From: an uncultured Hoeflea sp. | Lineage (GTDB): Bacteria; Pseudomonadota; Alphaproteobacteria; Rhizobiales; Rhizobiaceae | Length of the DNA stretch: 64,000 nt | NCBI RefSeq assembly: GCF_947501405.1 | Contig: NZ_CANMVK010000001.1 | Coordinates: forward strand, 1,860,001 to 1,924,000 | Reading direction: 5' to 3' | Part shown: positions 11,658 through 27,459 of the stretch, piece after piece | How the letters are laid out: each line of letters starts with the position of its first letter | Numbering within the stretch: position 1 is the stretch's first letter | Notes under the pieces: generated by a model | The model's input: only the letters and a program-made list of their open reading frames with translations | What the model was told of the DNA's origin: nothing | The model's database searches: none | Made by a program: the position numbers and the translations under genes

Positions 11658-12953
11658 CTAGCGATAGAGGTCTGCACGGGTCGGCGGCAGGCCGGCCGGG
11701 CCGCGCTGCACCTTGGTTGTCACGGTCTGGTAGAGGCGCACGGTGTTGCGTTCAAAAGCGATCGAGCAGCCGCCGAGATAGACCAGCCACAGCCTGGTCT
11801 TGACCTCGCCGACCTCGGCCACCGCCGCTTCGTAGTTGGCCAGCAGGCGGTCATGCCAGAGCCTGCAGGTGCGCTGGTAATGCTCGCGCCAGTTCTCAAC
11901 ATCATGAACCTCGAATCCGTGCTGTTCGAGCATGGTCACAGTGTTGCCGATATGGTCCAGCTCCCCGCCGGGGAAGATGTATTTGGTCAGGAGCTTGAAC
12001 TCCTTGTTCTTCTTGCGGAAGGTCTTGGCGTCTTTTTTGGCGGGCCGGGTGATGGCGTGATGGAGATAGATGCCGCCGGGCTTGAGCACCCGCGCGATGG
12101 TTGAGTAATAGGTCGGATAATTGTCGATGCCGATGGCTTCATGCATCCCGATCGAGGAGATCTTGTCGAACTCGCCGGCCACTTTTGCGTAATCAATCAA
12201 TACGAAATTGACCTTGTCTGCCAAACCAAGCTGCTCGGCCTTGGCCTGGGCGTATTCGAGCTGGTTTTCGGACAGAGTGACGCCGGTGACGTGCACCCCG
12301 AAATTGGCCGCGGCATAAAGCGCCAGCGAGCCCCAGCCGAAACCGATGTCGAGCATCTTGTCGCCGGGTTTCAGCCGCAGCTTGCGGCAGATCATCTCCA
12401 GCTTGTCAGTCTGCATCTGATGGATGTCATTGTCCCAGTTGGTGCAATAACCGCAGGTGTAAACCATCTGATCGTCCAGGAAGAGCCGATAGAAGGCGTT
12501 GGAGACATCATAGTGATAGGCGATGTTTTTCTGGTTTTCCTCGGCATTTCCATCGGAGGGTTTTTCATCCGGCTGATCGCTGAGCGGCCAGGGGCCGCCC
12601 TTGTTCAAGAACAGGAATTTTCTCAGCGTGTTGGCCACCTGGAACTTGCTCAACTGCTTGCGGATTTCGCGGGTGCGCACCTTGGGCCGCCGCGCCAGCA
12701 GGTCGAACAAGTCGCCATTCTCGAAATCGATGCGCTTGGAAACCCAGAGATTGAGGAGAGTTTCGGGCTGCGGCGAGCGCATCAGCGCTGCGACCAGGTT
12801 TTCATCGGCGAGACGGATGGTGAAGGCGCCCGGGGCCAGGTCCTCCGGCACTGTCGAACCGTCCCAGAGCCGGAAGCCGATATCAAGCTCGAGGATCTGG
12901 CGCGCATGTGCCAAAAGCTTGCGAAAACTCTTCAGGCGGCTGTTCGTACTCAT
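11658..12953 (-). CDS. cyclopropane-fatty-acid synthase-like methyltransferase (copy 1)
   Basis: SAM-dependent enzyme of the CFA/CmaS family, 431 residues, expected to add a methylene bridge to unsaturated acyl chains of membrane phospholipids. The N-terminal helical domain of about 130 residues precedes the methyltransferase fold. The SAM motif is MLDIGFGWGSLALYAA, and NIAYHYDVSNAFY is the family hallmark before it. The conserved Glu in MHEAIG and the YIFPGGELD motif are also present. Start ATG 12953 gives the usual N-terminus; the frame stays open to 13223 but adds non-homologous Pro/Arg-rich sequence. A diverged paralogue lies at 26185. Confidence 0.88.
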   Translation of the reverse strand: MSTNSRLKSFRKLLAHARQILELDIGFRLWDGSTVPEDLAPGAFTIRLADENLVAALMRSPQPETLLNLWVSKRIDFENGDLFDLLARRPKVRTREIRKQLSKFQVANTLRKFLFLNKGGPWPLSDQPDEKPSDGNAEENQKNIAYHYDVSNAFYRLFLDDQMVYTCGYCTNWDNDIHQMQTDKLEMICRKLRLKPGDKMLDIGFGWGSLALYAAANFGVHVTGVTLSENQLEYAQAKAEQLGLADKVNFVLIDYAKVAGEFDKISSIGMHEAIGIDNYPTYYSTIARVLKPGGIYLHHAITRPAKKDAKTFRKKNKEFKLLTKYIFPGGELDHIGNTVTMLEQHGFEVHDVENWREHYQRTCRLWHDRLLANYEAAVAEVGEVKTRLWLVYLGGCSIAFERNTVRLYQTVTTKVQRGPAGLPPTRADLYR

Positions 12954-13409
12954 CGTCCAATGCTCCGTTGCAGGCGGCAGAATTTCACACCGTTGCGGCC
13001 AGACCCCGGCCAGATTGGCTGAAGGCCGTGGTCGCCGCCAAGCTTTAGCCGACCTGTGGCGCGAGACAAGCCCGGATGATGGTTTTGTGGATGGGGATTG
13101 AGCCGGACGCCGCGTGCCATTCGCGGCTGAGGGCGTAACCGGCAGTAAAGGGCGGCCGCTGTTCAATGCGATGATCAAGCCAAAATCGGTCGGATATGGC
13201 AGACTGTCCTTGATCAGATGCACAAAGCGGCAATGCGGCTTGATTGCAGATCGCCTGGGGTTCGGTTGTCAGGTGGTTCCGTCTGATATGAACCTTTGGC
13301 TGCAACCGGACGGAAGACGGCAGCCTACAGGGGCATGATCAGACTTGGCCGCGGCGCGCCTGCAGCCGCTTTCAATCGCTCAAGCGCGTTCAACAATGGA
13401 GGAAAGTTG
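12954..13409. other. long divergent intergenic region
   Basis: About 455 bases between the cfa-like and DUF1428 genes, carrying both promoters. GGAGGAAAG at 13398-13406 is the ribosome site of the DUF1428 gene. Short frames are present, but none has a recognisable product, and I see no clear operator. Confidence 0.4.
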
Positions 13410-18517: not shown

Positions 18518-19650
18518 CACTTGTTCCAGGTGCTGTCACCCTGTGCGGGCGGCGACGGCGCCTGCTCGGGCACGCGCCGGCCATGATAGAGATCACTGTC
18601 GAGATAGCGTGAGATTGCAAAGCGCATCAGCACGCCAACGCACGCCGCAGCGGGCACCGCGATCAGCATTCCGACAAATCCGAACAGTGCGCCGAAGGCG
18701 AACAATGCGAACATCAGCCACACCGGATGCAGGCCGACCGATGATCCCACCAGCCGCGGCTGCAGGATGTTGCCCTCAAAGAACTGACCCACGGCAAACA
18801 CCGCCACGACCGCGCCGATCATTACGAAGTCCGGCCAGAACTGGACAATCGCAACCACCAGAGCCAGCACCAGACCTACCATCGAACCAACATAGGGAAT
18901 GAAGCTGATGATGCCCGCGAACAGGCCGATCAGCAGGCCGAAATTGAGCCCGACGATCGACAGGCCAACCGCGTAGATGATGCCGAGGATCACACAGACG
19001 CTCCCCTGCCCGCGCACGAAGCCGGCAATGGCCCGGTCGATCTGCCGGGTGAGATCACGCACCGTCTCAACATGATCGCGCGGGACCCAGCTGTCGATCT
19101 TTTCGATCATCCGGTCCCAGTCGAGCAGCAGGTAAAACGCCACCACCGGAGTGACGACGAACAGCGCGGCAATGTCCAAAAGCGCCATGCCGGAGTTCCA
19201 GATCTGCTGGAAGATGGTGGCGACGAAGCCTGCGCCCTCGCTCAATAGCGCGGCAAAGCTGTCCTTGATCTGGTCGAGCTGGCCGCTCATCCATTCGGGC
19301 AGCAGCCTGTTTTCCGAGGTCAGCAGCGTCTGCAGTTGGGTGATGTAGCCCGGGATGCGCCCGCCCAGATCGGCGGCCTGGGTAACCAGCACGGGGATCA
19401 ACACGACCAGCGCCATCGCAAACAGCGCCACAAAGATGATCAGGATCACCCCGGTCGCCATTAACCGCGAGAGGCCGCGGCGCTCGAACCAGTCGGCCAC
19501 CGGGTCCAGGAAATAGGCCAGCGCCATGCCGGCGATGAACGGCAGCAGAATGGATCTGAACACCATCAGGAAGATGACGAACACGGCAAATGCAAGCAGC
19601 CAGAAAAAGACTTGCCGCCTGAGCGCTGACGGATCGATCTGGGTTGTCAT
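18517..19650 (-). CDS. AI-2E family transporter (PerM-like permease)
   Basis: A 377-residue inner-membrane protein of the AI-2E/PerM family. Hydrophobic helices cluster at the N-terminus (VFFWLLAFAVFVIFLMVF) and in the C-terminal half, with the family motif FIPYVGSMVGLV and the region PRLVGSSVGLHPVWLMF. Members have been linked to autoinducer-2 or ion export, but the substrate is usually unknown. GAGGGA about 6 bases upstream supports ATG 19650 over longer alternatives. It overlaps hdaA by one base pair group (ATGA), a common arrangement in Alphaproteobacteria. Confidence 0.88.
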   Translation of the reverse strand: MTTQIDPSALRRQVFFWLLAFAVFVIFLMVFRSILLPFIAGMALAYFLDPVADWFERRGLSRLMATGVILIIFVALFAMALVVLIPVLVTQAADLGGRIPGYITQLQTLLTSENRLLPEWMSGQLDQIKDSFAALLSEGAGFVATIFQQIWNSGMALLDIAALFVVTPVVAFYLLLDWDRMIEKIDSWVPRDHVETVRDLTRQIDRAIAGFVRGQGSVCVILGIIYAVGLSIVGLNFGLLIGLFAGIISFIPYVGSMVGLVLALVVAIVQFWPDFVMIGAVVAVFAVGQFFEGNILQPRLVGSSVGLHPVWLMFALFAFGALFGFVGMLIAVPAAACVGVLMRFAISRYLDSDLYHGRRVPEQAPSPPAQGDSTWNK

Positions 19651-19693
19651 GCTTCCCTCGCTTGCCGTGCCTTTGTTGCCGCGAACCCCCGGT

Positions 19694-20239
19694 TTACCCG
19701 GTTTCGCCGTTGCCGGCCATGTGTCTAAGCCAGGTGACGAGATAGGCGCTAGCCGAAGCAATGGTCAAGCCCGCGGTGATATAGATCATCCAGACGGTGA
19801 CCGCGCCAAACTCGGCAATGCCGGCAAGTTCAGCCAGAATCAGCACGATCAGAAGGATCTGAGCGGTGGTGTTAGCCTTGGAGATAAACAGCGGCCGCAT
19901 GGCGACCGGTTGATCCATCAGGCTCGACAGCACCACCGCGCCAATGATCAGCGTATCGCGCGACACCGCCAGAAGCACCAGCCAGTTGGGCAGCACGTTG
20001 AGCCAGCCCAGCATCACGAAAACACTGACCAGCAAAACCTTGTCGGCGATCGGATCGAGCCAGGTGCCGAGCTCGGATCTCTGGTTGAACTGACGGGCGA
20101 TAAAGCCATCGACCCCATCGGAAACACCGGCGAGCAGGAACAGCACAAAGGCGATCATCATCTCGTCATTGATCATGGCGAGAATGATGACGGGCACCAG
20201 AACAAAGCGGGCGATGGTGATAAAGTTCGGCAGCGTCAT
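19694..20239 (-). CDS. CDP-alcohol phosphatidyltransferase family protein
   Basis: A 181-residue integral membrane enzyme that transfers a phosphatidyl group from CDP-diacylglycerol to an alcohol. The full signature is present: DGVDGFIAR, then after eight residues GTWLDPIADK, giving the D-x2-DG-x2-AR-x8-G-x3-D-x3-D pattern. Several hydrophobic helices follow. A second family member at 41640 is the likely PgsA, so this one may be a cardiolipin-synthase-type or other phospholipid enzyme; the acceptor cannot be told. It is the first gene of the leftward cluster, divergent from purM. Confidence 0.82.
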   Translation of the reverse strand: MTLPNFITIARFVLVPVIILAMINDEMMIAFVLFLLAGVSDGVDGFIARQFNQRSELGTWLDPIADKVLLVSVFVMLGWLNVLPNWLVLLAVSRDTLIIGAVVLSSLMDQPVAMRPLFISKANTTAQILLIVLILAELAGIAEFGAVTVWMIYITAGLTIASASAYLVTWLRHMAGNGETG

Positions 20240-22169: not shown

Positions 22170-22511
22170 CACGCTTGGGTCAGCACGCCGATCCTACCGC
22201 ATTACAGCCGTACGGCATCAGCCGACACAGGCGGCCGAACCGCTAAGCAGAGCGTGTATCAGCCACAATACAACCTACTATACATTAGTGTATTTTGTGC
22301 TACCTTAGGTGTTATTCACATCCTGTCCGGCAAGAGCCCGGATATCCATGTCGACATCGGCATGGCCTGAACCGGAGCGGTTTGCGGCCGGAGGCGGAGC
22401 TATGCCCGCACACACCCGGATCCGCCGAATAGGGTGATGAACAACAGGCCGGGGTCCGCATCACGGCGCCCTATCAACTCAATGCATGACAAAGCAAAGG
22501 GAGACACCGTC
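22170..22511. other. AT-rich leader region upstream of the 90-residue gene triplet
   Basis: About 340 bases. The stretch around 22262-22318 is much more AT-rich than the surroundings and probably carries the promoter. It holds a 5-base inverted repeat (ATACA at 22280-22284, TGTAT at 22289-22293). It also holds the words CTACTATA (22275), TGTATTTTG (22289) and TAGGTGTTATT (22306), all of which recur upstream of the gene at 40847. The distance to the first ATG is about 200 bases, so a long leader is possible. No gene is supported here. Confidence 0.5.
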
Positions 22512-22784
22512 ATGTCCAATTTCGCATCCAAACCCCCATCCCGCGACAAGGGCGGCCCCAGCGGCTTTTTTCAGGGCGGAATGATGCCGGCGGCGCCGAT
22601 GGACTACGCCTCGCTGATCGTGTTCGACATCCGCGCGCTCAAACTCAGCGTCGATGAGGGCCGCAAACTCGAAGGCGAGTTGCGCGAAGTCCTGTTCAAG
22701 ATGCTCGACGGCCGCGCCAAGGGCTTGTCCGAGCGCAGCGCTGCTGATCTGGGCGGCACCGTGCTGGGCATTGCCATCGAGTAG
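22512..22784 (+). CDS. 90-residue tandem-family protein, copy 1
   Basis: First of three tandem paralogues of identical length (273 bases each). The N-terminal 32 residues are polar and Pro/Gly-rich (PPS, GGMMP). The C-terminal 58 residues begin ASLIVFDIRALKL, then carry a charged amphipathic helix (DEGRKLEGELREVLFKML) and the tail LGGTVLGIAIE. There is no signal peptide and no Cys. The start is supported by AAGGGAGA upstream and by the same M-(S/T)-(N/D)-F-x-S-x-PPS beginning in all copies; an ATG at 22434 is not conserved. Function unknown; the context suggests a substrate for the oxygenase and aminotransferase downstream. I do not recognise a named family. Confidence 0.75.
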   Translation: MSNFASKPPSRDKGGPSGFFQGGMMPAAPMDYASLIVFDIRALKLSVDEGRKLEGELREVLFKMLDGRAKGLSERSAADLGGTVLGIAIE

Positions 22785-22936
22785 AAGACTGCCTGCCCAG
22801 GGTTCCCCCGCAAGCAGCCTTGCAAACCTCACACCCGGTCGGCCGTGCAGCCAAATCGCCGTCGCCAGTCACCGTATTGCTTGTCCGTTTGCAAGACCGG
22901 CAGTCGGACGCGGCCGCCATACCACAGGAGAACGAT

Positions 22937-23209
22937 ATGACCGATTTTTCGTCCCGCCCGCCGTCCAAGGCCCGTCCGGCGCCTGAAGGCCTGTTTCGCG
23001 GCGGATTGATGCCTGTTGAAGTCACAGGCGCCGCCTCGCTGATCGTGTTCGATATCCGTGCGCTCAAGCTCGGCATCGACGAGGGCCGCGAACTTGAAGG
23101 CCAATTGCGCGAGGCCCTGTTCAAGATGCTCGATGGCCGCACCAAGGGCTTGTCCGAGCGCAGCGCCGCCGACCTTGGCGGCACCGTTCTGGGCATCGCC
23201 ATCGAATAG
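22937..23209 (+). CDS. 90-residue tandem-family protein, copy 2
   Basis: Second paralogue, 90 residues. Residues 33-90 differ from copy 3 at only 3 of 58 positions, whereas residues 1-32 agree at about 18 of 32. The most variable segment is six residues (VEVTGA) just before ASLIVFD. CAGGAG about 7 bases upstream of ATG 22937 is a good ribosome site. It lies 152 bases after copy 1 and 32 bases before copy 3. The near-identity of the 3' halves at DNA level suggests recent duplication or gene conversion. Confidence 0.75.
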   Translation: MTDFSSRPPSKARPAPEGLFRGGLMPVEVTGAASLIVFDIRALKLGIDEGRELEGQLREALFKMLDGRTKGLSERSAADLGGTVLGIAIE

Positions 23210-23241
23210 CCCTCCCAACACCTGTTCAAGGAGACCACAGC

Positions 23242-23514
23242 ATGACGGATTTTGCCTCCACACCACCATCCAGGGCGAAAGACGCGCCGGAAGGCATGTT
23301 TCAACGCGGCATGGTGCCTGTCGATCCGATTGGCATTGCCTCGCTGATTGTGTTCGACATCCGCGCGCTCAAGCTCAGCGTCGATGAGGGCCGCGAACTA
23401 GAAGGCCAGTTGCGCGAGACCCTGTTCAAGATGCTCGACGGCCGCACCAAGGGCTTGTCCGAGCGCAGCGCCGCCGACCTTGGCGGCACCGTCCTGGGCA
23501 TCGCCATCGAATAG
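23242..23514 (+). CDS. 90-residue tandem-family protein, copy 3
   Basis: Third paralogue, 90 residues, starting MTDFASTPPSR and ending LGGTVLGIAIE. Predicted features are a short beta strand (SLIVFDIRAL), a charged amphipathic helix over roughly residues 46-66, and a Gly-containing hydrophobic tail. The ribosome site AAGGAGA lies 9 bases upstream. The gene is followed by a GC-rich hairpin and then the JmjC-type oxygenase gene. Its role is unknown; see copies 1 and 2. Confidence 0.75.
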   Translation: MTDFASTPPSRAKDAPEGMFQRGMVPVDPIGIASLIVFDIRALKLSVDEGRELEGQLRETLFKMLDGRTKGLSERSAADLGGTVLGIAIE

Positions 23515-23566
23515 GCTCGCATTGCGAAGGCCCGTTCCCTTCGGTCGGCGCCTCGTACACGCATCG

Positions 23567-23587
23567 GCGGCCGCAGACAGCGGCCGC
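23567..23587 (+). other. GC hairpin between small genes and enzyme genes
   Basis: Two GCGGCCGC arms (23567-23574 and 23580-23587) flank a 5-base loop. There is no T-run after it, so it is more likely an attenuator or mRNA-protecting stem than a full terminator. It lies between copy 3 and the oxygenase, where it could keep the small proteins in excess over the enzymes. Confidence 0.5.
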
Positions 23588-23613
23588 TGCAACCTAAGCC
23601 AGGGAGAGCGCAA

Positions 23614-24615
23614 ATGAGTGAAGCCAGAGCCGTGATCGACACCGACGCGTGGACGGAATGGGTGGCGCACAATCTCGCCATGGGTGTGCCGGCCGCGGAA
23701 ATCTCCGGCGAACTCTTGAGCGCCGGCATGGACCGGGCGGCCATCGACCACCTGATCGCCGACATAGAGACCAGCCCCGTGTTCCGCGCCGCCCGCAGGC
23801 TTGGCAATGATGTGCGCAAATGGACGGTGTTGAGCGACACATTGCTCGCCATGGAGGGCCAGACCCACGATTATGACCGCATCGAGAGGGTCTCTGGATT
23901 GTCGTCGGAAGCGTTTCACCGCGATTACTACGCGCTCAACCGGCCGGTCATCATCACCGATGTGGCCAGCCAATGGCCCGCAGTGTCGAAATGGAACCTC
24001 GATTTCCTGATCGAGCATTTTGGCGGGGCGGCGATCACCTATCAGCATGGCCGCTCGCGCAGCGATCATCGTGATTCCTTCGTCGACCATTCCACACGCG
24101 CGACGCTCGGCGAATATATCGAGCTGATCCGCGGCGGCGGCGAGACCAATGATTACTATCTCATCGCCCATGACAAGATTCTCGACCGGCCGGATTTCAA
24201 GCCGCTGCTGGACGACATCGTGTTCGATCCACGCTATTTCGACGCCGTCAACCAGCCCGGCCGGGTGTTTTTCTGGCTCGGCCCCAAGGGCTCGACAACA
24301 CCGATGCACCGGGATCTCGGCAATGTCTTCTTCGCCCAGATCATGGGCCGCAAGCGGGTCACGCTGATCCCGTCAAAGCAGATGCACAAGGTCTACAACG
24401 AGACCGGCTATCACAGTGAGATCGACTTCGACCGCGAAGATCTTTCCGATTACCCCCGGCTCGAAGGCGCCCACATCGTCGATGAAATCATCGCCCCGGG
24501 TGAATTGCTGTTTATTCCGCTCGGCTGGTGGCACGCGGTTAAATCGCTCGATGTCAGCGTCACGGTGACGGGCAACAATTTCCGCTTCCCGAATGTCTTC
24601 ACCGAGATCTTCTGA
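23614..24615 (+). CDS. JmjC/cupin_8-type Fe(II)/2-oxoglutarate-dependent oxygenase
   Basis: A 333-residue protein. An N-terminal helical region of about 85 residues precedes a FIH/JmjC-like double-stranded beta-helix. The 2-His-1-carboxylate iron triad is His232 and Asp234 in PMHRD and His307 in GWWHAVKSL. Lys247 or nearby basic residues in GRKRVTLIP are placed to bind 2-oxoglutarate, and PVIITD is the usual domain entry motif. The family hydroxylates protein or peptide side chains. GGGAGA about 8 bases upstream supports the start. It lies 99 bases after copy 3 and 2 bases before the aminotransferase gene, suggesting a joint role with the small proteins; this is inference. Confidence 0.85.
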   Translation: MSEARAVIDTDAWTEWVAHNLAMGVPAAEISGELLSAGMDRAAIDHLIADIETSPVFRAARRLGNDVRKWTVLSDTLLAMEGQTHDYDRIERVSGLSSEAFHRDYYALNRPVIITDVASQWPAVSKWNLDFLIEHFGGAAITYQHGRSRSDHRDSFVDHSTRATLGEYIELIRGGGETNDYYLIAHDKILDRPDFKPLLDDIVFDPRYFDAVNQPGRVFFWLGPKGSTTPMHRDLGNVFFAQIMGRKRVTLIPSKQMHKVYNETGYHSEIDFDREDLSDYPRLEGAHIVDEIIAPGELLFIPLGWWHAVKSLDVSVTVTGNNFRFPNVFTEIF

Positions 24616-24617
24616 TC

Positions 24618-25940
24618 ATGGAAGACAACGCGCAGCCGCCGCACCGACCGGGCGGCGGCGCTTCGCATCCGGATCGGAGCTCCGGCGTCGATCCGAACGC
24701 CGGCCCGGCGGAAGCCGCTGATTCCGGCTTTTCCGTCCGCCGCTCATCTGAATTGCTGCGGCGGATCCGGCGCTCGGAAGCACTGATAGATGCCCGTCCG
24801 GGGCTCTATTTCACCGGCTATGAGCGGATTGGCGGCTATCCGGTGTTCATCGACCGGGCGAAAGGCGCCAAGCTCAAGGATGTCGACGGCAACATCTACA
24901 CCGATTATCTGCTCGGCTTCGGCTCGGTGGTGCTGGGGCATGCCGATGTACGGGTGAACGCCGCAGTGGTCGCGGCGCTGGAACGCGGCGTCAATCCCAG
25001 CCTTCTCGACCGCTCCCATCTCGAGCTTGCCGAGCGGATGGTGGAGCTGGTGCCGGCGGCTGATTGCGTAACCTTTCTCAAAACCGGGTCGGACGCAGTC
25101 GATGCGGCCGTGCGGCTCGCCCGGGCGGTCACCGGCCGCCAGCGGGTGCTGCATTACGGCTATCACGGCTGGCATGACTGGTGCTCCGCGTCCCCCGGCG
25201 TGCCGCCGGCCGGCAAGACCTTGCTGCACAGCCTGCGCTACAATGCGCCCGAGGACGCAGAGGCATTGTTCGCCGCCCATCCCGGAGAGATCGCCTGTGT
25301 GGTGATGATGCCTTACGAGATCGAGGCGCCAGCCCCTGGCTATCTCCAGGCAATGCGCGCCATCGCCCACCGCCACGGGGCGCTGTTCATTCTCGACGAG
25401 GTCCGCTCCGGTTTCCGCATCGGGCTGGGTGGCGCGCAGACGCATTTTGACGTCACTCCGGATTTGACGGCCTTCGGCAAGGCGATGGCCAATGGCCATG
25501 CCATCTCGGCGCTGGCCGGACGCCGCGAGATCATGGCAAGGATCCTCGATCTGGGTCTGACGGTGACTTATTTCCGCTCGCCCGATGCCATGGCGGCAGC
25601 GATGGCCACGCTTGAAACACTCGAGCAGGACGACGTACCGGCCCGGCTGGCCTTGCTTGGCGCGAGGTTGATGGCCGGGCTCGATGAGGCGGCGCATCAG
25701 ACCGGAACGCCGGCCCGCGCGGTGGGACTGCCGGCAACACCGTTCCTGCGCTTCGAGCACGCGCGCGAGGCAGACCGGGACAAGGCGATACGGCTGTTTT
25801 GCAACGCCATGCTCAGCCAGGGCCATTTAATGACGCCGGCGCATCACTGGTTCGTCTGCGCTGCAATGCGCGAAGCCGACATCGACCAGACCGTCCAGGC
25901 GGCACGGCAGGCCTTTCAAATGCTGCAACGGATGCTTTAG
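24618..25940 (+). CDS. class III PLP aminotransferase, glutamate-1-semialdehyde aminomutase-like
   Basis: A 440-residue fold-type I PLP enzyme. Phosphate-binding LKTGSDAVDAAVRLAR (Gly/Ser near residues 157-158), the YHGWHDW motif, Asp260 in FILDEVRSGFR contacting the PLP ring, and Schiff-base Lys288 in AFGKAMANG are all visible. It resembles HemL, but the first 40 residues are a Pro/Gly-rich extension, and its setting is not tetrapyrrole synthesis. It follows the oxygenase by 2 bases and is therefore surely co-transcribed. It may convert an aldehyde or keto group to an amine, or move an amino group, on a product of the oxygenase; the substrate is unknown. Confidence 0.85.
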   Translation: MEDNAQPPHRPGGGASHPDRSSGVDPNAGPAEAADSGFSVRRSSELLRRIRRSEALIDARPGLYFTGYERIGGYPVFIDRAKGAKLKDVDGNIYTDYLLGFGSVVLGHADVRVNAAVVAALERGVNPSLLDRSHLELAERMVELVPAADCVTFLKTGSDAVDAAVRLARAVTGRQRVLHYGYHGWHDWCSASPGVPPAGKTLLHSLRYNAPEDAEALFAAHPGEIACVVMMPYEIEAPAPGYLQAMRAIAHRHGALFILDEVRSGFRIGLGGAQTHFDVTPDLTAFGKAMANGHAISALAGRREIMARILDLGLTVTYFRSPDAMAAAMATLETLEQDDVPARLALLGARLMAGLDEAAHQTGTPARAVGLPATPFLRFEHAREADRDKAIRLFCNAMLSQGHLMTPAHHWFVCAAMREADIDQTVQAARQAFQMLQRML

Positions 25941-26184: not shown

Positions 26185-27459
26185 ATGTTTTCGCTTTATG
26201 GCCTGCTTGGAAAGGCGATCCGCAATGGCCGCCTGACGGTGACCGACGCCAAGGGCGGCGTGCACAAGTTCGGTGGTGAGGCGCCCGGACCCGAGGCGGC
26301 GATCCGGTTTACCAACCCGTCGGCCGAATGGAAAATCCTGCTGAACCCCGAACTCAACGCCGCCGAGGCCTATATGGATGGCCATCTGGTGGTGGATAAT
26401 GGATCGATCCACGATCTGGTTCGGGTGTTTTACGCCAACAAGCGTCATTTCGACCTCACACCCAGCCAGATCTTCTGGCGCAATCTGTCGCGCAAGATCC
26501 GCCGCTTCCAGCAAAACAATGCGCTGAGCCGGTCGCGCGCCAACGTCAAGGCGCATTACGACATCGGCGAGGACCTCTACCGGCTGTTTCTCGATCGAGA
26601 CATGCAATATTCCTGCGCCTATTTCGCCGATGGCTCGGAGACCATCGATCAGGCGCAGACGCTGAAAAAGCGCCACATCGCCGCCAAGCTGCACCTCAAG
26701 GATGGCCAGCGGCTGCTTGATATCGGCTGCGGCTGGGGCGGACTGGGGCTTTATCTCGCACATGTCGCCGACATCGAGGTCGTCGGTGTTACGCTGTCTG
26801 AACGGCAACTGGCCGTGGCGCGCCGCCGCGCCGAAATTCTGGGTGTCAGCGACCGGGTGAAATTCGAGCTGATCGATTACCGCGAAGTAACCGAAACCTT
26901 CGACCGGGTGGTGTCGGTCGGCATGCTCGAACATGTTGGCGCGCCCTTCCTGCCGGCCTATTTTCTCACCGTGCGCGACCGGCTAGCGGCCGACGGGCTG
27001 GCAATGATCCACTCGATTTCATCGAAAGCACCGCCAGGCGTCACCGGTCCGTTCTTGCGGAAATACATCTTTCCGGGCGGCTATTCGCCGTCGCTGTCGG
27101 AAACCGTCGAGGCAATCGAGCCGACCGGGCTGTGGCTGCTCGATTGCGAGATCCTGCGCTGCCATTATGGCTACACGCTCAGGCACTGGCGCGAGCGCTT
27201 TGCGGAAAACCGCGACAAGGCGGCCGAGATCATGGACGAGCGCTTTTGCCGGATGTGGGAGCTCTATCTGTCGATCGCCGAAGCCGTGTTCCTGCAGGGC
27301 TCGAGCCACGTTTTCCAGCTTCAGCTTGGCCGCGAGCGCGACGTGGTGCCAATCACCCGGACCTATATCGAGGCCGAAGAGAGCCGTATCGCCGAGCGCG
27401 AAACCGAGTTTCTCGAACGCGTGACGGACAGCGCCCATCAGGCGCTGAACGGTGACTGA
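26185..27459 (+). CDS. cyclopropane-fatty-acid synthase-like methyltransferase (copy 2)
   Basis: A SAM-dependent CFA/CmaS-family enzyme of 424 residues, predicted to modify phospholipid acyl chains. NVKAHYDIGEDLYRLF marks the family, the SAM site is LLDIGCGWGGLGLYLA, the catalytic-base region is VGMLEHVG, and KYIFPGGYSPSLSE follows. The N-terminal domain is of the CFA type. GGAGG about 9 bases upstream supports ATG 26185. It is only distantly similar to copy 1 at 11658, so the two probably differ in substrate or in when they act. It is convergent with the multicopper oxidase gene. Confidence 0.88.
   Translation: MFSLYGLLGKAIRNGRLTVTDAKGGVHKFGGEAPGPEAAIRFTNPSAEWKILLNPELNAAEAYMDGHLVVDNGSIHDLVRVFYANKRHFDLTPSQIFWRNLSRKIRRFQQNNALSRSRANVKAHYDIGEDLYRLFLDRDMQYSCAYFADGSETIDQAQTLKKRHIAAKLHLKDGQRLLDIGCGWGGLGLYLAHVADIEVVGVTLSERQLAVARRRAEILGVSDRVKFELIDYREVTETFDRVVSVGMLEHVGAPFLPAYFLTVRDRLAADGLAMIHSISSKAPPGVTGPFLRKYIFPGGYSPSLSETVEAIEPTGLWLLDCEILRCHYGYTLRHWRERFAENRDKAAEIMDERFCRMWELYLSIAEAVFLQGSSHVFQLQLGRERDVVPITRTYIEAEESRIAERETEFLERVTDSAHQALNGD

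Follow-up and report, generated by a model that had tools for sequence, protein, structure and literature searches.

A 64,000-nucleotide stretch of the genome of an uncultured Hoeflea sp. (contig NZ_CANMVK010000001.1, positions 1,860,001 to 1,924,000; hereafter the window) carries, between the housekeeping genes purM and purN and a cfa-like gene, five genes in the same direction that form a compact cassette. The first three, located on the + strand at 22512..22784, 22937..23209 and 23242..23514, were called as open reading frames (ORFs) of 273 bases including the stop, and each encodes a small protein of 90 amino acids. They are followed by the gene of a cupin_8/JmjC-type oxygenase of 333 amino acids (23614..24615, +) and, 2 bases further on, by that of a HemL-like class III pyridoxal 5′-phosphate (PLP) enzyme of 440 amino acids (24618..25940, +). 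An earlier note on this DNA had described three adjacent paralogues of that length directly 5′ of an oxygenase with an intact HxD...H triad, a HemL-like enzyme 2 bases after it with Asp260 and Lys288 intact, and purMN and a cfa-like gene at the two sides. The description holds: the ORFs are present, residues H232, D234 and H307 of the oxygenase and D260 and K288 of the PLP enzyme are in place, and the flanking genes were identified by Pfam.

The three small proteins share 72, 79 and 81% identity in pairwise comparisons, and they are the sole adjacent paralogues at E ≤ 1e-10 among the 71 window ORFs of at least 60 amino acids, the two further pairs being non-adjacent. Their conservation is unevenly distributed. 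The last 58 residues are 90–95% identical between paralogues and residues 1–32 only 41–56%; the N-terminal third is low-complexity-like and maintains a conserved frame, F-x-S-x-P-P-S ... P-x-G-x-F-x-x-G-x-x-P. When the single copies of two relatives, Hoeflea olei JC234 and Hoeflea sp. BAL378, are included, the N-terminal positions kept over the five sequences are F4, S6, P8, P9, S10, P16, G18, F20, G23 and P26, and the C-terminal residue is acidic in all of them (E in four, D in one), located after an invariant GGTVLGIAI block. Small protein 1 is the paralogue nearest to those single copies. The three window copies contain no Cys.

The small ORFs are under purifying selection, roughly at the level of the oxygenase gene: the ratio of non-synonymous to synonymous substitution rates (dN/dS) is 0.18–0.31 over ten small-protein pairs and 0.20–0.26 over three oxygenase pairs. 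Each ORF has a Shine-Dalgarno-like GGAG or GGGAG ending 6–8 bases 5′ of the ATG. The GC content at third codon positions is 0.77–0.82 in the small ORFs versus 0.77–0.79 in the two enzyme genes, purN and cfa, and their GC by codon position is similar to that of the adjacent genes. The synonymous rate dS is lower in the last 58 residues, both between paralogues and in the computable orthologue pairs, so that gene conversion among the copies is possible. The family is a new one in the collections searched. The small proteins gave no Pfam, NCBIfam or PHROGs match at E ≤ 1, small protein 1 no PADLOC match at E ≤ 0.01, and a profile of the five sequences no match among Protein Data Bank (PDB) sequences at E ≤ 10. 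An AlphaFold model (mean pLDDT 54.5), poorly predicted at the N-terminus, places a strand at 35–39, a helix at 47–65 and a strand at 84–88; with low confidence, the C-terminal 58 residues may thus be of β-α-β type, and no fold is claimed because the structure models are of low confidence.

The oxygenase reaches 132.9 bits with Pfam Cupin_8, the cut-off being 27.4, which together with the HxD...H triad places it among the JmjC/cupin_8 2-oxoglutarate (2OG) oxygenases. The best match among solved sequences is JMJD5 (PDB 6f4r and others; query residues 91–318, E 6.7e-30), whose metal ligands and GRK lysine align with the window enzyme. Residue K247, also present, we take to be the 2OG binder, on the basis of its alignment with that lysine and of what is known of the family. 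The AlphaFold model of this protein (mean pLDDT 43.3) contains helices between residues 10 and 80, the part from about 10 to 60 being the best modelled; with low confidence, the oxygenase is predicted to consist of a helical N-terminal part (approximately residues 10–80) and a subsequent catalytic domain. Cupin_8 oxygenases at three other loci (L017, 7668–8708; L019, 6269–7297; L020, 6379–7362) match the N-terminal part of the window enzyme also and have neither a small-protein nor a PLP-enzyme neighbour. Judging from these sequences, the N-terminal part may be a common accessory domain.

The second enzyme reaches 163.8 bits with Pfam Aminotran_3 (cut-off 30.5) and, having D260 and K288, belongs to the class III PLP enzymes. 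Its closest curated models in NCBIfam lie below their cut-offs: the PRK06209-type glutamate-1-semialdehyde (GSA) aminomutase with 276.8 bits versus 486, the guanitoxin transaminase GntE with 235.6 bits and HemL with 232 bits versus 527.3. LysJ gives 98.9 bits versus 700. The loop after the motif YHGWHDW is short: in an alignment with two GSA aminomutases, this region lacks about 13 residues. Identification of the enzyme as HemL itself was discarded, the curated cut-off not being reached and the gating-loop region not being full.

The small protein occurs together with both enzymes. Among 101 relatives searched at E ≤ 0.001, true matches were found in three genomes of a single genus, the window's own, BAL378 (G005) and H. 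olei (G006); in the latter two the order is purN, one small-protein gene, oxygenase, PLP gene and cfa-like gene. Thus, the copy number is three in the window genome and one in each of the others, and the order of the gene types is identical. In a set of 18 genomes of the genus, the oxygenase orthologue (76–83% identical across the three species, dS 0.42–0.82) and the PLP orthologue (E < 1e-260) were located in the same three genomes. More remote class III enzymes are widespread: at 1e-20, 15 of the 18 genomes match, the three carriers among them. The earlier note had linked the small protein to the two enzymes, and homologues standing mainly without them would have contradicted it; such homologues were looked for, and all three species have the genes together. 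We conclude that they move as one cassette, a conclusion drawn from no more than three species.

Detection of purN in 17 of the 18 genomes (the eighteenth, G007, is 77% complete) allowed inspection of the equivalent locus. Three loci contain the cassette, one contains the tail of the PLP gene alone and 13 have no similarity to the cassette by tblastn at E ≤ 0.05, two chance-level PLP matches (0.023 and 0.038) falling within the cfa region. The tail, in G011 (L047), is a stretch of 93 residues from the C-terminus of the PLP enzyme, with 59% identity; lying between purN and cfa, it is the sole cassette trace detected there. In a tree of the purM and purN proteins the four carriers do not group, several deep nodes being weakly supported. 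On the simplest reading, the cassette probably dates from early in the genus and has been lost on several occasions; its exchange among species, through recombination in the flanking DNA, is possible. With the genes lying side by side, a single deletion takes out the whole set, and the fact that they are lost together provides no independent argument for a common function. Further observations were made in these genomes. In G014 (L049) the cfa-like gene matches at its ends alone (residues 1–62 and 387–422), as if mostly deleted. G011 also has a weak oxygenase match (E 2.4e-11), which proved to be another cupin-type ORF. In locus L060 of G011 (1387–2283) a different cupin-type ORF matches the oxygenase profile with E 6.8e-17, and directly after it comes an ORF taken to encode a second JmjC-type protein; neither the small protein nor the PLP enzyme has a match there.

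Outside the genus, the samples searched yielded no true small-protein homologue; the own genome has the three copies only, and plasmids, phages and viral contigs gave no match. Three weak candidates were dropped: one among the 101 relatives (L006, 5.8e-4) lies within an ORF recognised as RNase HII; another, from 289 genomes of the class (L016, 0.0098, at E ≤ 0.01, the sole match besides the own genome), comprises 41 residues inside an ORF recognised as an RNA methyltransferase; and at the third, from 199 genomes of the family (L066, 0.006, same threshold and again the sole match besides the own genome), no ORF of at least 40 amino acids matches at E ≤ 1. The oxygenase was found only in its own genome among 297 genomes of the order (1e-20) and 237 of the family (1e-25), results from which G005 and G006 are absent, so that these sets are samples and not a census. 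Among 398 genomes of the phylum at 1e-30 it appeared in three others, at four distant loci, none with a small-protein or PLP-enzyme neighbour. Plasmids gave 11 records, the best with 33% identity and none spanning 80% of the query. Two short N-terminal patterns of the oxygenase, run over genome contigs, matched 63 stretches, two of which encode a relative, both from Hoeflea; such a scan would miss distant relatives, and confinement to the genus is therefore not proved. The PLP enzyme was present in 12 of the 398 phylum genomes at 1e-80, its own included, and had no match in viral contigs. Eight of the 11 other loci were inspected; none has the oxygenase or the small protein, and seven adjoin nonulosonate or sugar-type genes, as recognised from their translations. 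The existence of distant oxygenase and PLP relatives without the small protein indicates that each enzyme family also works without it.

The surroundings of the cassette were also analyzed. The intergenic region located 5′ of it (22170..22511, +) was submitted to a promoter scan and to comparison with the relatives; no sigma-70-type promoter-like site was found in it on either strand, and it aligns poorly with the equivalent region of both relatives, in contrast to the small ORFs, which have 71–83% DNA identity. A GC-rich hairpin in the gap between small protein 3 and the oxygenase gene (23515–23613) was dropped, with a z score of −2.20 in the window, 0.41 in H. olei and −1.63 in BAL378. According to Pfam, the flanks are purM and purN (AIRS and Formyl_trans_N) on one side and the CMAS/cfa-like gene on the other, followed by a multicopper oxidase gene on the other strand. 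The window contains a second cfa/CMAS-like gene, the ORFs at 11658–13223 (−) and 26185–27459 (+) being 38% identical over 270 residues. Past purM, on the other strand, lies a gene of an AI-2E-family transporter (18520–19761), with nothing linking it to the cassette.

Because one JmjC/cupin-type and one class III enzyme, both of kinds with known members that act on ribosomal peptides, are united with a small protein, the best single reading, still a tentative one, is that the small protein is modified by both enzymes in a compact protein- or peptide-modification cassette. This reading builds on the genes themselves, their intact catalytic residues, the selection on their ORFs and their joint occurrence in three species, where order and locus are common and the small protein is always with both enzymes. 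In the model, the C-terminal 58 residues would serve as recognition part; the oxygenase would hydroxylate or oxidise a side chain on the small protein, and the PLP enzyme would then act on the resulting carbonyl. We infer that the small protein is the substrate, and the residue to be altered, the order of the steps and the role of the product belong to that same proposal, as does the oxidise-then-aminate chemistry. In its most defined form the proposal would be a hitherto undescribed minimal system: a JmjC-type hydroxylase oxidises a folded 90-residue protein belonging to a new family, a HemL-like PLP enzyme then aminates it, and the modified protein remains inside the cell with an unusual residue that bears an amino group. 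This version appears rather unlikely.

Several observations weigh against modification of the small protein: (i) it stands beside none of the four distant oxygenase loci and none of the eight distant PLP loci; (ii) the curated models to which the PLP enzyme comes closest describe enzymes acting on small molecules; (iii) no protease or transporter gene was recognised by Pfam between purN and cfa, a result for the locus only, unlinked genes not having been searched; (iv) the N-terminal third is variable and the remainder near-identical, which is not the pattern of a conserved leader and a variable core; (v) the AlphaFold models of small protein and oxygenase are poor; (vi) joint absence of a contiguous cassette is weak evidence; and (vii) two of the three carrier genomes are single-copy. 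A hypothetical follower-type layout, in which the core is N-terminal, would agree with the conservation pattern. No RiPP recognition element (RiPP, ribosomally synthesized and post-translationally modified peptide) was found among the five cassette proteins in the general Pfam scan, no specific model of that element having been run; according to the available part of PMC10036551, the element occurs in about half of prokaryotic classes. From the layout of a ribosomal peptide or modified-protein system that the earlier note had seen, short precursor-like genes kept beside genes of modifying-type enzymes are found in all three genomes, while tandem copies are not essential, the conservation is not that of a typical precursor and the cassette has no protease or transporter gene.

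The main rival, less probable yet not far behind, is a small-molecule pathway with an accessory protein. The enzymes would make or alter a small metabolite by hydroxylation and then transamination, the 90-residue protein being an accessory that stabilises, activates or regulates one of the two. Such a role agrees with the small-molecule character of the PRK06209-type and GntE models, although the enzyme scores below both cut-offs, with the sugar-type surroundings of seven of the eight distant PLP relatives, and with the near-invariant C-terminal part, which suits a folded partner protein. However, the oxygenase is closest to protein hydroxylases, in a comparison that covers solved structures only; it is not obvious why a partner protein should be triplicated and diverge in its N-terminal third; and no further pathway gene was recognised at the locus. 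It is improbable that small protein and enzymes are functionally unlinked, neighbours that arrived or persisted as one purN-cfa block. A single deletion removing everything and the 13 of 17 loci without a detected cassette gene would be in line with it, but in three diverged species each of the three gene types is intact, their order is unchanged and dN/dS is well below 1, despite common loss in the genus. Least probable is a carrier, with an amino acid joined to the C-terminal Glu/Asp as on LysW and the oxygenase and aminotransferase working on the attached group. In its favour are the acidic ends of all five sequences after GGTVLGIAI and the presence among the matches of LysJ, a class III aminotransferase whose substrate is bound to a carrier; against it are a LysJ score far under its cut-off, the absence of a ligase among the five proteins in Pfam, a C-terminus without EDWGE and copies without Cys.

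Were the small protein the substrate, a JmjC-type hydroxylase and a class III PLP enzyme would constitute a new two-step route to a protein side-chain amine, one needing three gene types only and hence easy to rebuild in Escherichia coli. Even if the chemistry concerned a metabolite, the small proteins of the cassette make up a new family that is linked to two enzymes. Among the matches listed in the literature on RiPPs, daptides and Hoeflea, no title or abstract opening describes a JmjC-type/class III PLP pair with a small protein, and it is plausible that the cassette is a new protein-modification system.

Comparison with known systems places the cassette beside several of them. As far as the available text of PMC10036551 and PMC12670281 goes, daptides are RiPPs with a C-terminal amine in which a class III aminotransferase acts on the peptide C-termini, encoded with several precursor genes. 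What the cassette has in common with them is a class III aminotransferase gene (PF00202) clustered with several small ORFs. The cassette proteins, unlike those of daptide clusters, include no oxidative decarboxylase (PF00465 or PF13561), the small proteins end in Glu/Asp and not in the Thr of daptide precursors, and a JmjC-type oxygenase is present instead; the adjacent cfa-like gene encodes a CMAS-type methyltransferase, but it is found also in genomes without the cassette. The absence of the decarboxylase and of the C-terminal Thr led us to reject a daptide system. LysW carriers of lysine biosynthesis have a C-terminal EDWGE, zinc cysteines and an ATP-grasp ligase partner, the amino acid being attached at the C-terminal Glu/Asp. 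The cassette resembles them in that a small protein with an acidic end is encoded next to a class III aminotransferase, and differs in having no ligase, Cys or EDWGE end, on which grounds a LysW-type amino-carrier was discarded. With the GSA aminomutases and PRK06209-type enzymes the PLP enzyme shares the class III family and the catalytic Asp and Lys, whereas its scores lie below the cut-offs and its gene context differs; the short loop after YHGWxDW is common to it and the aligned distant relatives.

The oxygenase, too, has counterparts. In biphenomycin-type RiPP pathways, the JmjC/cupin-type 2OG oxygenases BipG and PbsQ are encoded with ribosomal precursors and hydroxylate ornithine in them, according to the available parts of PMC12707348 and PMC12257519. 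The MNIO, B12 radical SAM enzyme, arginase-type enzyme and metallopeptidase named there for these clusters are not among the cassette proteins, and the word aminotransferase does not occur in the main text of either paper. JMJD5 is an arginyl hydroxylase, as the available part of PMC5862942 describes; like BipG and PbsQ, it is a related oxygenase that acts on proteins or peptides. The window enzyme differs from JMJD5 in being bacterial and in its predicted helical N-terminal extension, and shares with it the catalytic domain, in which the metal ligands and the GRK lysine are aligned.

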